Below, piece by piece: positions 148 to 5,555 of a DNA stretch of 13,329 nt. The translations under genes were made by a program, and so were the position numbers. The notes under the pieces were generated by a model, which saw only the letters and a list, made by a program, of their open reading frames with translations, was not told the origin of the DNA and ran no database searches. Positions within the stretch are counted from its first letter, which is position 1; every line of letters begins with the position of its first letter. The DNA is from Candidatus Iainarchaeum sp. (GTDB taxonomy: Archaea; B1Sed10-29; WALL01; JAGHAM01): positions 1 through 13,329 of the forward strand of contig JAGHAM010000002.1 in assembly GCA_021161465.1 (NCBI GenBank). The letters are read 5' to 3'.

Positions 148-960
148 CTAACCAATAACATTCAAGGAGAAGTCCACAATCCTTGCTGATTTTGTAAGAT
201 AACCCATAGAGATTATATCTGGCTTTAGGCGTGCATAAACCTCCAGGTTGTCAAAGTTTATCCCACCAGATAGCTCGATTTTCACTGGATAAGCACGCAA
301 TTTTTCAATAGCTTTTGAAGCCTCGCTTATTGGGAAATTATCAAGCATTACAATATCAGCCCCTGCCTCCGCTGCTGCTAAAGCCTGCTCAAGACTATCC
401 GCCTCAGCCTCAACCTTAAGATTTGGATACGACTCCTTCGCCTTGCCCACTACCTCCTCAATGCTCTTGCAGAAAACTAGGTGATTATCCTTAATCAATA
501 CCATATCACCCAAATCATGCCTGTGTGGCCAAGCTCCTGCGATTTTAGCAGCCTTTTTATCAAAGTCTCTTAAGCCAGGCATTGTCTTGCGTGTTAGCGC
601 TACTTTTACACCATACCTACCAGTTACACCAACTGCTTTCTTGCAGAGTGTTGCCACCCCGCTCATCCTGCCAAGCAGGTTTAAGGCCGTCCGCTCTACA
701 GAGAGCATGGACTTGTTTGAACCTTTTAGACGCATAACCGTTTCTCCCTCTCCGCATACTTCCCCATCATTCTTCAAGAAAACCATCTTTATGCCCTGCA
801 GCTCAAACAAACGGGAAACTTCATTCACACCTGCCAGGATGCACTCCTCATTTGCAACTACCTCTGCCTCGCACTCAGAAGCAGGTATCAAAGCAGTAGT
901 TACATCCTTTTCAAAGGCGTCTTCCTCTAAAAATGAAACCAGGGTTTTATCAAGGTTCAC
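148..960 (-). CDS. nadC: Nicotinate-nucleotide pyrophosphorylase (quinolinate phosphoribosyltransferase)
   Basis: The 270-residue product makes nicotinate mononucleotide, CO2 and PPi from quinolinate and PRPP, the third step of de novo NAD synthesis. Family motifs appear in order: SVERTALNLLGRMSG at about residues 87-101, TRKTMPGLR at 123-131, HRHDLGDMVLIKDNH at 146-160 (substrate-binding His/Arg/Lys), EAEADSLEQA at 184-193, VMLDN at 204-208 and ELSGGI at 229-234. Length is normal for NadC (about 270-290). The start is GTG at 958-960, chosen because AGGAGGTG lies five bases upstream. That site overlaps the nadE stop codon, so nadE and nadC are one transcript and probably translationally coupled. 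The upstream enzyme NadA is not in the window. The PPi released could be handled by the pyrophosphatase encoded at 9497-10045, which is an inference only. Confidence 0.96.
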   Translation of the reverse strand: MNLDKTLVSFLEEDAFEKDVTTALIPASECEAEVVANEECILAGVNEVSRLFELQGIKMVFLKNDGEVCGEGETVMRLKGSNKSMLSVERTALNLLGRMSGVATLCKKAVGVTGRYGVKVALTRKTMPGLRDFDKKAAKIAGAWPHRHDLGDMVLIKDNHLVFCKSIEEVVGKAKESYPNLKVEAEADSLEQALAAAEAGADIVMLDNFPISEASKAIEKLRAYPVKIELSGGINFDNLEVYARLKPDIISMGYLTKSARIVDFSLNVIG

Positions 961-965
961 AGCAA

Positions 966-973
966 CACCTCCT
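966..973 (-). promoter_or_regulatory. Shine-Dalgarno site of nadC
   Basis: On the minus strand this reads AGGAGGTG, a strong anti-16S match five bases before the GTG start of nadC. It fixes that non-ATG start. It overlaps the nadE TAG stop (972-974), which suggests ribosomes ending nadE can reinitiate on nadC. Confidence 0.85.
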
Positions 974-1643
974 AAATTATGTCTGGTCCTATCCTTTTAT
1001 GTTCGACCTCAGAAACTCTCTTCCATATTGGATGGCTCCTGTCGTTCCCTTTCAGTGCCTTATCGATATCTTCATAAGAAAACCCCAACTCTCCTTCATC
1101 CGTTTGGCCAGACCACAGCCCAGCTGTAGGCTTCTTATTGAGTATGCTTCCAGGAATCCCAAGCTCGCGTGCCAGAGCATACACATCAGTCTTGTACAAA
1201 CTACCTATGGGTAAAACATCACATGCTATATCGCCGTGTTTGGTGAAATACCCCAGTAGATATTCTGTTTTATTCCCTGTTCCCGCAACAAGTGCATTGT
1301 GTTTTCTCGCAAAGTAATAAAGCATTATCATCCTGACACGGGCCATCACATTGCCCATATCCAGCTCATCCTCTGTGCCTACCAGCTTGCAAATAGCATC
1401 GACGGGTTCCTTTGTTGTTATCCTGGAAAAGTTAACTCCTGTTGCCTCTACTACTTTCTCAACATCAGGGTCCTCCTCAAAATACGGCAGCGAGTAGGTG
1501 TATATGTTTTCAGCGCCAAGTGCATCTGCCAGCAGAAAGCAAACCACAGATGAATCCACACCACCGCTTAGGCCAATGACCGCTTTCTTAAAGCCCTTCC
1601 TCTTGAAATAGGAACTTATTCTCCCGACTAATTCCCCTTTCAT
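972..1643 (-). CDS. nadE: NH3-dependent NAD+ synthetase
   Basis: The 223-residue product amidates deamido-NAD (nicotinic acid adenine dinucleotide) to NAD with ATP, the last step of NAD synthesis. It has the N-type ATP pyrophosphatase loop SGGVDSS at about residues 26-32, then GNVMARVRM at 97-105, GTGNKTEYLLGYFTKHGD at 121-138 and IGSLYKTDVYALA at 146-158. There is no nitrilase-type glutaminase domain, so the nitrogen donor should be ammonia. The reading frame runs on upstream to 1706. I chose ATG 1643 because the family homology begins there and a TATA-like box sits about 28 bases upstream, which suits a leaderless mRNA. It is the first gene of the nadE-nadC unit and is divergent from nadK. 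At 223 residues it is slightly short for the family, but all key motifs are present. Confidence 0.95.
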   Translation of the reverse strand: MKGELVGRISSYFKRKGFKKAVIGLSGGVDSSVVCFLLADALGAENIYTYSLPYFEEDPDVEKVVEATGVNFSRITTKEPVDAICKLVGTEDELDMGNVMARVRMIMLYYFARKHNALVAGTGNKTEYLLGYFTKHGDIACDVLPIGSLYKTDVYALARELGIPGSILNKKPTAGLWSGQTDEGELGFSYEDIDKALKGNDRSHPIWKRVSEVEHKRIGPDII

Positions 1644-1667: not shown

Positions 1668-1675
1668 TATAAAAA
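1668..1675 (-). promoter_or_regulatory. TATA-like box of nadE (minus strand)
   Basis: The minus strand reads TTTTTATA, centred about 28 bases before ATG 1643. No Shine-Dalgarno site lies between box and start, as expected for a leaderless archaeal transcript. This box and the nadK box share the 117-base divergent spacer 1644-1760. Called from sequence and spacing only. Confidence 0.5.
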
Positions 1676-1729
1676 TAGAGACGGTTTGAGGTAATATTGT
1701 CCGCAATCATCGAAAAAGCCGACAAAATG

Positions 1730-1737
1730 TATTTTAA
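1730..1737 (+). promoter_or_regulatory. TATA-like box of nadK
   Basis: TATTTTAA centred about 27 bases before ATG 1761, with no Shine-Dalgarno site before the start. The spacing matches leaderless transcription. The match to a TATA consensus is moderate. Confidence 0.42.
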
Positions 1738-1760: not shown

Positions 1761-2765
1761 ATGGAGTCACCAAAGGTAGATTACTTCATAGGCAAGGAAA
1801 GCACAGTCTGCACAGAAACCGTGAGGGAAGTTAAAAAAGCTCTTGAGAAACACGGCTTAGATATGCGCGAATGGAAACCAGGAAGAGAAGCAGATATGGT
1901 TTTTGTCTTTGGTGGGGATGGAACACTATTACAGGTCCTGCAGGCTATGGGTGAGAACCCAATACCTGTGTTAGGTATTAACTGTGGCGAACTCGGGTTT
2001 TTGATGGAAGTTAACTACTCCAACTTTAAGAAATTCCTGCCTTCTATCTTAAATGGGAGATATGCCCTGGAAAAGAGGAACCGGCTTATACTATCTGGTA
2101 AAAAGCCGTTCTATGCATTAAATGAATTCGTTGTGTGCCCATCCAAATCGGCAACTCTTGTAAGGTATATCCTAAGGGTAAACGGTGAGCAGATTTGGAG
2201 AGATTCTGCAGATGGTCTTGTCATAGCAACGCCTACAGGTTCAACTGCCTATGCCCTATCGGCTGGAGGACCAGTAATCACCCATGATTCTCAGGTGTAT
2301 GAGATAGTACCAAATAACTCAGTGAACCAGGCAAGGCGGGCTATGATAGTTCCAAAAGATGCTGTAACTGAGATAGAAGTTATGGACTGCCCAGGGGAAT
2401 GTAACGTGATAATAGATGGAAAAACTAGAATCAAGTGTAAAGACCACATCAAGATAACAACCTCAGATAAACCAGCCCTCTTCGTAAGGCTTTTCCCATC
2501 ATATACGGTGCTTTCAAGCAAGATGAAAAAGAAAGTTGATGTGTTTGGAAACCACGCCATACGTGGTGAGTCTCCATCCTCCAAATTCATCCTGAAAGTC
2601 ATAGAGTTTGAAGGCCCGCTTACACAAAAGGAAATCATCAAGGCCACACAACTACCAGCGCGAACCATCAGGCGCAACCTAGAGAGGCTCATAAAAAAAG
2701 GCCTTATCATCAAGAAGCCTTTCTTAGAAGACCCCAGGCAGTCTCTTTATATGATTGCTGATTAA
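1761..2765 (+). CDS. nadK: NAD kinase with C-terminal winged helix-turn-helix domain
   Basis: The 334-residue product has two parts. Residues 1 to about 255 are an ATP-NAD kinase (PpnK/NadK): FGGDGTLLQVL at 50-60 holds the GGDG nucleotide-binding and catalytic motif, GINCGELGFL at 72-81 follows, NE at 121-122 is the usual NAD-binding pair, and DGLVIATPTGSTAYALSAGG at 151-170 is the second signature. This part would phosphorylate NAD to NADP in the cytosol. Residues about 272-334 look like a winged HTH: a first helix SSKFILKVIEF, TQKEIIKATQ, a recognition helix PARTIRRNLERLIKKG and a wing ending RQSLYMIAD. NAD kinases usually end near residue 250-300 without such a domain. I infer an autoregulatory or nucleotide-sensing role; the sequence does not prove DNA binding. 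The gene is divergent from nadE. A TATA-like box but no Shine-Dalgarno site precedes ATG 1761. Confidence 0.93.
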   Translation: MESPKVDYFIGKESTVCTETVREVKKALEKHGLDMREWKPGREADMVFVFGGDGTLLQVLQAMGENPIPVLGINCGELGFLMEVNYSNFKKFLPSILNGRYALEKRNRLILSGKKPFYALNEFVVCPSKSATLVRYILRVNGEQIWRDSADGLVIATPTGSTAYALSAGGPVITHDSQVYEIVPNNSVNQARRAMIVPKDAVTEIEVMDCPGECNVIIDGKTRIKCKDHIKITTSDKPALFVRLFPSYTVLSSKMKKKVDVFGNHAIRGESPSSKFILKVIEFEGPLTQKEIIKATQLPARTIRRNLERLIKKGLIIKKPFLEDPRQSLYMIAD

Positions 2766-2800: not shown

Positions 2801-2831
2801 TCTAAGTCCTGTTGTTTCTTTGGTGCTGGTT

Positions 2832-3521
2832 ATGGAACCTGAAACGCGAATAACTGAAAATCCGCCACCTGCTATAAGGCCAGGCAGTGATATTGAGCAA
2901 AGGACCAATCCTATTGGCTTTGGGTCAAAGGTAGTATGCTGGTTCACATCCGTGTATAACGGTGCAGAAACTGCACGCAGGTTTAAGGGAAAGGTAGGTC
3001 TTGGTAGTGGGCTTCTAAACTTACTGGTTGCTTACTTCATTGTTGATGTAATTTCAATACCGATTTATTTTTTGATTTCTGGGTCTACTCCACCAGGAGT
3101 AACAAAAGAGATATTCTTCTTGCTAGTTATAGCACTCCAGATAGTAGGGTTGGTCAGCTGGCTTGCGATAAGTTTCCTTTCGCACCTGCTTGCCACTTAT
3201 ATGGGTGGCCAGGGGAGCTTCAGTGAGCTTGCTGGTCTTTTGACATTCCCACAGTCAGGAGTAATGATATTGAACCTTTTTTTCAGCTGGATACCTTTAT
3301 TGGGTGGATTGGTTCAACTTGTGCTTGGGATAGCTCTGGTTGTATCCGAGGTAAACATAATAAAAGAGGAGTATAGCATAAGCGGACTGAAAGCATTCAT
3401 TGCATGGCTCGTCCCAGCGGTCATAGCTACCCTGATACTTGTAGGAGTGGCTGTAGCGTTAGCTGTCACCTTGTATGCTTCAATACCTAGAATGGTTACA
3501 ATGCCACCTCCATATTACTGA
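2832..3521 (+). CDS. Yip1-family-like multi-pass membrane protein
   Basis: The 229-residue product has a polar, proline-containing N-terminus (residues 1-55) and then about five hydrophobic segments: roughly 62-83, 94-116, 143-157, 158-175 and 186-215. The stretch with GGQGSFSELAGLLTF (125-139), then a hydrophobic pair, then a loop with EVNIIKEEYSIS and a last helix resembles the Yip1 domain family, seen in archaeal membrane proteins of unknown role. ATG 2832 is used here. GTG 2823 or TTG 2820 would fit a leaderless start better relative to the TATA box and add three or four residues. The gene sits inside the NAD block and its 3' end overlaps the convergent nadD by seven bases. A link to NAD metabolism, for example precursor uptake, is only a guess from position. 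Confidence 0.72.
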   Translation: MEPETRITENPPPAIRPGSDIEQRTNPIGFGSKVVCWFTSVYNGAETARRFKGKVGLGSGLLNLLVAYFIVDVISIPIYFLISGSTPPGVTKEIFFLLVIALQIVGLVSWLAISFLSHLLATYMGGQGSFSELAGLLTFPQSGVMILNLFFSWIPLLGGLVQLVLGIALVVSEVNIIKEEYSISGLKAFIAWLVPAVIATLILVGVAVALAVTLYASIPRMVTMPPPYY

Positions 3522-4102
3522 GGGCTGTATGAATAAAGCCTGTGTTTTAGCATATAATCCTCGATGTGTTCTGAGACCAGTCCTTTGATTGACTCACCTC
3601 TAGCTATTCTTTCGCGCACTAGTGAACTGGAGATACGGGGGGAATCGCAGATTAAAGTTTCCCCAAAAGGTGTATTGCACTTCCCCCTGCAAACTACCAG
3701 AAAGTTGAAGTGTTTCTTCAAAGTCTCGCTTTCCCTCCAGTTGTCAAACGAACCCAACGATTTCTCGCTTATCGCCCAGTAGAAACGCGTATGAGGGTAC
3801 TTTCTCCCAAGTTCCCTTAGTGTGTCAATAGTGTAACTTACTCCTCCCCGCTTTATTTCGAGCCGGCTGACGCGCGCATTCTTAACTCCCTGTATGCCAA
3901 GCTTGCACATCGCATACCTCCTTTCCGCCGGGGCCAGCTTTTTGCCAAGTGCGTGTTGGTTGCAGGGCATAACCCAGACTTCATCAAACCTGCGCGCAAG
4001 GCACCTAACAACGGCTAGATGCCCATTATGAAATGGATTGAATGACCCCCCAAAAACAGCAATCCGTTTTTCATGTGTTTGCTCTGACAAACCTAACTTC
4101 AC
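3515..4102 (-). CDS. nadD: Nicotinate-nucleotide adenylyltransferase, bacterial NadD type
   Basis: The 195-residue product should join nicotinate mononucleotide and ATP to make deamido-NAD. It has the nucleotidyltransferase motif FGGSFNPFHNGHL at about residues 17-29, PAERRYAM at 58-65 and the second signature ISSSLVRERI at 157-166, followed by VSEHIEDYMLKHRLY near the end. This is the bacterial NadD pattern; archaea generally use the unrelated-looking NadM instead. Where bacterial NadD usually has a GxD before a Trp, this protein reads AISEKSLGSFDNW (110-122), so that aspartate is not in its usual context. The start is GTG 4102, supported by GAGGAGG seven bases upstream. It overlaps the nadB 3' end by 32 bases and follows nadB in one transcript. 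Confidence 0.9.
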   Translation of the reverse strand: MKLGLSEQTHEKRIAVFGGSFNPFHNGHLAVVRCLARRFDEVWVMPCNQHALGKKLAPAERRYAMCKLGIQGVKNARVSRLEIKRGGVSYTIDTLRELGRKYPHTRFYWAISEKSLGSFDNWRESETLKKHFNFLVVCRGKCNTPFGETLICDSPRISSSLVRERIARGESIKGLVSEHIEDYMLKHRLYSYSPQ

Positions 4103-5468
4103 TAAAATTCCTCCTCACAACAGTGTGCATCGGCACTTTCCATTTTGCTGGAAAATCTTCACGGTAATGTGCACCCCTGCTCTCTTTTCTGGCAAGCGCG
4201 CTCCTTATTATAAGCTCTGCAAGCTTTCCTGGGCGGCCTGCTAAGCCTTGCTTCAACGATTTTTCACTCCGTGAGATTCCACAGGAGTCCCACAGCACCT
4301 GCTTTGCCTCATGGCTTGGCCGAACATCGGCTATGCATGTTTTTGGTCTTGGAAGCGTAAAGCCGGTAGAAGCACTGGTCTGCTCACCAGCGCGTGCACC
4401 AAAGACCAGTGCCTCAAGCAGCGAGTTGCTCGCAAGCCTATTCGCCCCATGAACTCCAGTGCAAGCCACCTCGCCACATGCCAGCAGACCAGGGATGTTG
4501 GTTCGCGCGTTAAGGTCTGTCCGAACTCCACCCATACAATAGTGTGCTGCTGGTTCAACAGGCACCAACCGCTTCGTTGGGTCAATTCCCATCTCAACGC
4601 ATTTACTGTATATGTGCGAAAATCTCTTCTTGAAATAGCCAGGCTCGATAGAGGTGGCATCCAGAAACACCTTTCTCCCAGCTTGGAGCTCCGCCTGGAC
4701 AGCCCTTGCAACCACGTCCCTGCCAGAGAGCTCATCTTGGTTATGCCTCTTAAGGAACCTCTCGCCCTTGTCATTAACCAGCTCTGCTCCCTCACCGCGT
4801 ATAGCCTCGGAGATTAGGAAACCATCAAACACAGTTGGGTGGAACTGAACAAGCTCCAAATCCATCAGCTCTGCTCCAGCTTGGTATGCCAGAAGCGCTC
4901 CCGCACCAACAGCTGACTCCGGGTTTGTGGTCTTTGAGTATAGTCCAGCATAGCCACCAGTGGCCAGTATGACAGAACCTGCCCTCAGCTCATTAAGCTC
5001 ATCATCTTTCTCAGTAACTACACCACAGCATCTACCCTGGCTAATTAGTAATCCTTTTACCCGCGCATCAAGGCGTGGGATATCTCTAGCCAGCTCGTTG
5101 ACGAAGCTTAAAACTTCCATCCCTGTGAAATCGCCTATGTGGAGCACCCGCCTAACCGAGTGAGCTGCCTCCATGCTTGGCTCATCGTCAAACTTTAGAC
5201 CTGAGGCCCTCAACTCTTTTACGCGCTCCTTGCCATCCTTTATGAGGATATTAACTGCTTCCTCTTCGCAAAGACCGTCCCCAGCGTTTATGGTGTCCCT
5301 AAAGTGAAGCTCCTCACTGTCGTCCTTGCCAAGCGAGGCTGCTATGCCACCCTGGGCTTTCTCTGTGTTCGGCTGCCCTGATGAGACTATCAGAACATCG
5401 CCTTTAGCATGCAAAGCAGCCATTAAACCAGCAAGCCCTGCTCCGACCACTATCACATCAGCATCCAT
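4071..5468 (-). CDS. nadB: L-aspartate oxidase
   Basis: The 465-residue flavoprotein oxidises aspartate to iminoaspartate, which NadA would condense with dihydroxyacetone phosphate to quinolinate. Visible motifs are the FAD Rossmann GAGLAG at residues 9-14, TEKAQGGIAA at 35-44, the capping-domain RGEGAELV at 224-231, GRDVVARA at 249-256 with the family's active-site Arg, HYCMGGV at 309-315, and GEVACTGVHGANRLASNSL at 332-350, which holds the substrate-binding His. These distinguish it from succinate dehydrogenase flavoprotein, together with the lack of sdh or frd partners. It is a little short because the C-terminal domain is compact. A weak TATA-like box but no Shine-Dalgarno site precedes ATG 5468. 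nadB and nadD form a minus-strand pair. nadA is missing nearby. Confidence 0.95.
   Translation of the reverse strand: MDADVIVVGAGLAGLMAALHAKGDVLIVSSGQPNTEKAQGGIAASLGKDDSEELHFRDTINAGDGLCEEEAVNILIKDGKERVKELRASGLKFDDEPSMEAAHSVRRVLHIGDFTGMEVLSFVNELARDIPRLDARVKGLLISQGRCCGVVTEKDDELNELRAGSVILATGGYAGLYSKTTNPESAVGAGALLAYQAGAELMDLELVQFHPTVFDGFLISEAIRGEGAELVNDKGERFLKRHNQDELSGRDVVARAVQAELQAGRKVFLDATSIEPGYFKKRFSHIYSKCVEMGIDPTKRLVPVEPAAHYCMGGVRTDLNARTNIPGLLACGEVACTGVHGANRLASNSLLEALVFGARAGEQTSASTGFTLPRPKTCIADVRPSHEAKQVLWDSCGISRSEKSLKQGLAGRPGKLAELIIRSALARKESRGAHYREDFPAKWKVPMHTVVRRNFSEVRFVRANT
4110..4116 (-). promoter_or_regulatory. Shine-Dalgarno site of nadD, inside nadB
   Basis: The minus strand reads GAGGAGG, seven bases before GTG 4102. 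It lies inside the nadB coding region and supports the long nadD frame that overlaps nadB by 32 bases. An ATG at 4072-4074 overlapping the nadB stop is out of frame with nadD, so it is not the start. Confidence 0.82.
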
Positions 5469-5490: not shown

Positions 5491-5500
5491 TTCAAATACC
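5491..5500 (-). promoter_or_regulatory. Weak TATA-like box of nadB (minus strand)
   Basis: The minus strand reads GGTATTTGAA, centred about 27 bases before ATG 5468, the spacing expected for a leaderless transcript. The match to consensus is weak and rests mainly on position. Confidence 0.35.
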
Positions 5501-5538: not shown

Positions 5539-5555
5539 CCGGTAAAAATGACCGG
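5539..5555. repeat. Short inverted repeat in the nadB-infB divergent spacer
   Basis: CCGGT and ACCGG flank the seven bases AAAAATG, giving a perfect five-base-pair arm. It lies between the nadB and infB promoters in the 224-base spacer 5469-5692. It could be an operator or a short hairpin. Five base pairs can arise by chance. Confidence 0.35.

Follow-up and report, generated by a model that had tools for sequence, protein, structure and literature searches.

A NAD kinase–winged helix-turn-helix fusion as a probable regulator of NAD biosynthesis genes in archaea

NadR of the Enterobacteriaceae unites NAD-pathway enzyme domains with a helix-turn-helix (HTH) domain and acts as a NAD-liganded repressor of nadB, nadA-pnuC and pncB (PMC6800001, PMC7221760). 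NrtR similarly joins a metabolic enzyme domain to a DNA-binding domain and has a palindromic site between the regulator gene and nadA/B/C; in some lineages its enzyme part is inactive whilst regulation is retained (PMC6800001). RbkR, as cited in PMC8305020, is an archaeal protein serving both as a cofactor kinase and as a gene regulator, and in that citation its HTH-less relatives are enzymes only. NiaR also regulates NAD biosynthesis genes (PMC7713382). An archaeal NAD kinase with an added domain is known in the MJ0917-type NAD kinase–NADP phosphatase (PMC8553519).

The archaeal protein described here resembles each of these in part. Like NadR it couples a NAD-pathway enzyme to an HTH, but NadR has an N-terminal HTH followed by NMN adenylyltransferase and ribosylnicotinamide kinase, a domain set that a domain search did not find in the fusion, whereas here a NAD kinase, the putative sensor, precedes a C-terminal winged HTH (wHTH). 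NrtR differs in its Nudix ADP-ribose fold and in its operator, GTTTTCGA-N7-TCGAAAAC in mycobacteria, and RbkR, as there cited, in being a riboflavin kinase with an N-terminal HTH that concerns flavin rather than NAD(P) metabolism; neither a Nudix nor a riboflavin kinase domain was matched in the fusion protein, in which only the NAD kinase and the C-terminal wHTH were found. The added domain of the MJ0917 type is an IMPase-like phosphatase and not DNA-binding (such fusions are also visible as frames of ~590 aa in the sampled archaeal genomes), and NiaR responds to niacin and has no NAD kinase fusion. By analogy, the fusion may work like NadR, NrtR and RbkR with a NAD kinase as its sensor, which none of those three uses. 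No report of a NAD kinase–HTH fusion, nor of an archaeal regulator of NAD synthesis, was found in the open-access literature. The reading favoured here, with a probability of about 0.8, is that the fusion controls the transcription of NAD biosynthesis genes, its own gene included, with the NAD kinase domain as sensor.

The window, that is the whole stretch of 13,329 nucleotides analysed, carries nadC, nadE, the divergent nadK-wHTH fusion gene, a gene for a 233-aa protein, nadD and nadB, an order kept in genome G001. In the window's own genome (G000) nadA alone lies outside the cluster, on contig C33. The genes are:

148 to 960, minus strand: nadC, quinolinate phosphoribosyltransferase (TIGR00078, 267 bits)
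972 to 1643, minus strand: nadE, NAD+ synthase, divergent from the fusion gene (TIGR00552, 220.6 bits)
1761 to 2765, plus strand: nadK-wHTH fusion gene, 334 aa (open reading frame and translation)
3515 to 4102, minus strand: nadD, nicotinate-nucleotide adenylyltransferase of bacterial type (TIGR00482, 124 bits)
4071 to 5468, minus strand: nadB, L-aspartate oxidase (TIGR00551, 443 bits, slightly below the cut-off of 452.75)

The adenylyltransferase at 3515-4102 is of the bacterial NadD type and not the archaeal NadM (TIGR01527, 22.6 bits, cut-off 181); a bacterial-type NadD is unusual in an archaeon. Its frame overlaps that of nadB by about 30 bases (4071-4102), which suggests coupled translation. 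The 233-aa protein encoded between nadK-wHTH and nadD (2820-3521) is membrane-like and has no NCBIfam family match; a similar frame of 218 aa occupies the same position in G001 (L002:2514-3167). An Rfam scan of the window found no RNA element, and therefore no known riboswitch accounts for nad control there.

The anatomy of the fusion protein is as follows:

1884 to 2492, plus strand: NAD kinase core, residues 42-244 (Pfam and motif table)
2574 to 2762, plus strand: winged HTH domain, residues 272-334 (Pfam HTH_24 and MarR_2 above cut-off; PDB matches)
2622 to 2651, plus strand: second HTH helix, TQKEIIKATQ, residues 288-297 (alignment of 22 family tails)
2655 to 2702, plus strand: recognition helix PARTIRRNLERLIKKG, residues 299-314, with an R-T-x-R core near-invariant across the family
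2703 to 2759, plus strand: wing region with the C-terminal family signature D-x-RQ-xx-Y (alignment of tails)

The kinase is matched by PF01513 (NAD_kinase N; residues 42-101, 3.1e-14, 53.8 bits against a cut-off of 25.5) and by PF20143 (NAD_kinase_C; residues 120-244, 2.4e-23, 82.7 bits against 23.7), and all of its motifs are intact: FGGDGT (GGDGT at 51-55), LNE (NE at 121-122), DSADG, TPTGSTAY and D219-G220. As it is the sole NAD kinase detected in a genome that is 93% complete, it is likely to phosphorylate NAD to NADP. In the tail, HTH_24 matches residues 277-316 with 26.0 bits (cut-off 21.9) and MarR_2, when the tail is scanned alone, scores 29.6 bits (cut-off 27); both models are matched by 20 of 22 family members. 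A phmmer search of the tail against the PDB returned MarR, Lrp and archaeal HTH regulators (best E 1.6e-4), and a profile of the 22 members returned the same classes. Within the protein, conservation is highest in the tail, with 88-91% identity to the nearest relative as against 56-64% for the kinase part, and the fusion recurs in distant archaea, so that the HTH match goes beyond chance. AlphaFold (AF2) models of the whole protein and of the tail, made from a two-sequence input, reached pLDDT values of 42 and 52; they are too poor for domain arrangement and place only helices at the expected HTH positions.

An earlier note on this DNA had described a NAD kinase with a C-terminal wHTH at 2565-2765 (residues 269-334). 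Pfam, the PDB matches and the family profile bear this out, the HTH profile search that the note proposed gives matches above cut-off, and the boundaries prove correct within a few residues. Its remark that NAD kinases normally lack such a domain holds for most of them, but a whole archaeal family carries the wHTH; the fusion, which the note had suggested looking for in related genomes, recurs across distant archaea.

The full-length fusion is present in about 25 of 394 sampled archaeal genomes, to which two phylum searches added many more. Carriers are found in the window's own family, in a second small-genome phylum (G058, G439, G440, G445, G449 and G222), in G128's phylum, whose genomes measure 2-4 Mb, in families f104 and f13, and as single cases elsewhere. 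Family f13 consists of ammonia oxidisers, since all 11 of its genomes encode archaeal AmoA; the labels 'Asgard-like', used here for the phylum of G128, and 'DPANN-like' are ones that we infer. A tree built from kinase columns only sets all 55 fusions aligned, which come from DPANN-like, Asgard-like and ammonia-oxidising lineages, apart from 49 stand-alone NAD kinases (support 0.90), and thus the fusion most likely arose once. Within it a clade of eight, all with intact kinases, holds the window's lineage (support 0.65), and the remaining 47 fusions (support 0.97) have broken loops except for G128. Some fusion-less archaea have short wHTH frames that stand alone and share 37-41% identity with the tail (G047:C1:1903362-1903571, G045:C1:6502-6669 and G013:C24:21462-21641); the domain may have come from such frames. 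In another genome (L103; G112:C11, ~13.2-13.7 kb) the only NAD kinase match is a fusion gene that has decayed and carries two internal stops.

The fusion gene is repeatedly coupled to nad genes. It is divergent from nadE, followed by nadC, in G000 and G001; from nadA in G058, G440, nearly all f45 genomes read (Asgard-like) and f148; from a nadA-nadC pair in f128; and from nadC and then nadE in f104. A divergent gene pair is the usual layout for a local regulator and its target. In the ammonia oxidisers the fusion gene is located away from the nad genes; its neighbours in one of them (L004) are a PfkB-type kinase gene and pyrG.

Reading of the fusion/nad spacers led to the discovery of a 13-bp palindrome, GGCAA-N3-TTGCC, which is the probable operator of the fusion protein. 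Of the 23 f45 genomes read, 22 have an exact copy in the fusion/nadA spacer, the remaining spacer being cut off by a contig end, and both fusion/nadC spacers of f104 likewise hold an exact copy; the middle three bases vary freely. With one or two mismatches it occurs in the fusion's divergent spacer of f148 and of the f128 genomes read, a single arm base being changed in f148 and in several f128 genomes. Each of the 11 ammonia-oxidiser genomes has it immediately upstream of nadA (nine exact, two with one mismatch), and in G128 it is found upstream of nadA with one mismatch. The nadA upstream regions of 32 fusion-less genomes, four of them from fusion-bearing families (three from f45) and 28 from other archaea, contain no site within one mismatch; the association of a nadA site with the fusion gives a Fisher p of 3e-9, kinship being ignored. 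The TATA box starts ~43 nt downstream of the palindrome in all 36 promoters compared, and offsets 43-47 are A/T in 36/36 of the aligned promoters (Asgard-like, f104 and ammonia-oxidising). The f45 genomes often have a further, weaker copy 29 bp nearer the promoter. No operator was found for G440, G222, G369, G167 or G175. Exact copies of GGCAANNNTTGCC at other places in G000 and G128 fall within long frames, away from nad genes, and were not counted as support. In six loci of ammonia oxidisers (L140, L142-L145, L158) an aspartate dehydrogenase-like gene precedes nadA, with nadC close by and the operator in the gap before nadA.

These promoters bear on whether the wHTH might be a structural or oligomerisation module without DNA binding, its proximity to nad genes reflecting pathway clustering. 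Whilst wHTH folds serve protein contacts in some proteins and genes of one pathway often cluster, few parts of the tail are as well conserved as the recognition-helix core, and the palindrome sits at a fixed TATA distance even at the unlinked nadA of ammonia oxidisers, yet is missing upstream of nadA in the fusion-less genomes searched. Pathway clustering explains neither the helix conservation nor the unlinked nadA palindromes nor their absence from the fusion-less genomes searched, and a purely structural module is considered highly unlikely.

In the window's lineage both the recognition helix and the candidate sites depart from the family pattern. In the intact-kinase clade the helix has RTVRR, RTIRR or RSIRR, G440 with KTVYN excepted; most other family members have RTVRY/L/H/N. 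The lineage's sites, GGCCAAATTGGCC in G058, GGACAGTCTGTCC in G439, GGCAAGTTTGACC in G001 and GGTAATATTGTCC in the window, combine into the variant GGNMA-N3-TKNCC. Operator variant and recognition-helix residue change together (RTVRR versus RTVRY/L/H). The corresponding features of the window are:

1668 to 1677, minus strand: nadE TATA-like box, 12 nt from operator candidate 1 (sequence)
1690 to 1702, unstranded: operator candidate 1, GGTAATATTGTCC, in the fusion/nadE divergent spacer (pattern match; counterpart GGCAAGTTTGACC at the same place in G001)
1721 to 1737, plus strand: promoter block GACAAAATGTATTTTAA upstream of the fusion gene, common to G001 (sequence comparison)
5494 to 5498, minus strand: nadB TATA-like TATTT, ~42 nt from candidate 2, offset 42-46 (sequence)
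5541 to 5553, unstranded: operator candidate 2, GGTAAAAATGACC (within CCGGTAAAAATGACCGG), upstream of nadB (second pattern match)

The variant has exactly two matches in the window, at 1690 and 5541, both at nad promoters, where a first-order model, with the frequency judged from 22 kb of the genome's sequence, expects about one match anywhere in the window. With shuffled spacers the probability of a chance match is 0.002 for the fusion/nadE spacer (1690) and 0.017 for that of nadB (5541). Because the pattern was partly defined from site 1690, the nadB site is the sole independent evidence inside the window, and the out-of-sample sites are this one and that of G445 only. The spacing of candidate 2 to the nadB TATTT matches that of other lineages; the same site is also ~40 nt from the infB TATA box, which leaves its target ambiguous. 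The earlier note had offered the divergent nadE-nadK promoter or that of nadB as the place where a regulator reporting cofactor state might act, and these are the only two places in the window with the lineage's variant; gene coupling, the palindrome at a fixed TATA distance and the fusion-linked nadA sites lend the proposed role support at the level of sequence. For the family as a whole the case for a regulator and its operator is strong; for the individual window sites it is moderate. G001 shows no convincing nadB site: a GGCTAG...CTGTCC match before that gene resembles a terminator-type hairpin and was not accepted as an operator. The nadB upstream region of G001 also has a terminator-like hairpin with a T run after it (L085:7560-7590).

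A narrower role is a possibility, albeit a rather doubtful one: the regulator would be real, but in the window's lineage the protein would be mainly a kinase whose tail autoregulates only its own gene and nadE. It would fit the counterpart of site 1690 in G001, the lack of a canonical operator upstream of nadA in G000 and G001, and the kinase being the sole copy; set against it is the second site of the window, at nadB with the common TATA spacing. Much less probable, indeed scarcely so, is that GGCAA-N3-TTGCC belongs to another, unlinked regulator of nadA which merely co-occurs with the fusion. Similar stand-alone wHTH proteins do exist in other archaea; however, the site lies within the fusion's own divergent spacer (f45 and f104, and with mismatches f148 and f128), it tracks the fusion inside one family, fusion-less f45 genomes being without it, and the operator variant changes along with the recognition helix.

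The state of the kinase differs between the two branches of the tree. The catalytic Asp of the GGDG loop removes a proton from the NAD 2'-hydroxyl, and the loop touches the ATP phosphates and the NADP 2'-phosphate (PMC8553519, PMC5890153). Of the 46 broken members, 22 have Ser at position 52 and 35 carry Arg or Lys at position 54, whilst 43 retain D53 and all 46 the pocket residues N121, D148, D151, G160, S161, Y164, D219 and G220; in f128 the loop reads GDTG or similar. An intact fusion is the genome's only short NAD kinase in eight of nine cases, and a broken one is accompanied by a second NAD kinase in 25 of 28 genomes (p = 3.5e-5; 0.009 when each family counts once), frames of ~370-400 aa matching PF20143 having been excluded from these counts as AcoX-like, judged by length. 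The exceptions to this rule are G449, G650, G618 and G621, the last three being incomplete assemblies. Broken-loop fusions, those of most lineages, are thus probable pseudokinase sensors, and the window protein, on the intact branch, is probably bifunctional. Such an enzyme-to-sensor transition, in which the catalytic loop is lost and the ligand pocket kept, mostly where a second NAD kinase exists, follows the course proposed for NrtR.

NAD kinases are homomultimers in which the NAD site is formed by the dimer (PMC8553519), and for this reason a two-headed protein on a palindrome would fit. In the mechanism that we infer, which covers DNA binding, ligand, dimer geometry and the choice between activation and repression, the kinase homodimer would present two wHTH domains to the 13-bp palindrome beside nad promoters. 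NAD or NADP in the shared cleft would shift the spacing of the wHTH heads and so alter DNA binding, and the altered promoter occupancy would tune nad expression to the cofactor pool. Sites ~43 nt upstream of the TATA box, at a constant distance, suggest activation of nadA; those touching the BRE/TATA, as in the fusion's own promoter in f104, suggest autorepression. In the window's lineage the same polypeptide, as an intact and sole kinase, would also make NADP, whilst in Asgard-like and ammonia-oxidising archaea, with the ATP/2'-phosphate loop broken and a separate NAD kinase present, it would be a pure sensor-regulator.

On balance we lean towards, without strong conviction, an archaeal NAD regulon of ancient origin under the control of a moonlighting NAD kinase, in which the enzyme itself is the switch in the window's branch and the kinase of Asgard-like archaea and ammonia oxidisers has decayed to a NAD(P)-sensing pseudokinase, often with a loop Arg or Lys at the 2'-phosphate contact, acting on the same operator at the same TATA distance. 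For ammonia oxidisers and Asgard-like archaea the preferred reading thus predicts a regulator of NAD synthesis whose operator is defined, a prediction testable with one protein and one promoter fragment. Two further residues set the fusions apart. Residue 187 (2319-2321 in the window) is Ser in 55/55 fusions and Pro in 47 of 49 stand-alone NAD kinases, and D148 is nearly fixed in the fusions only (54/55); the two may be a signature of the sensor role.
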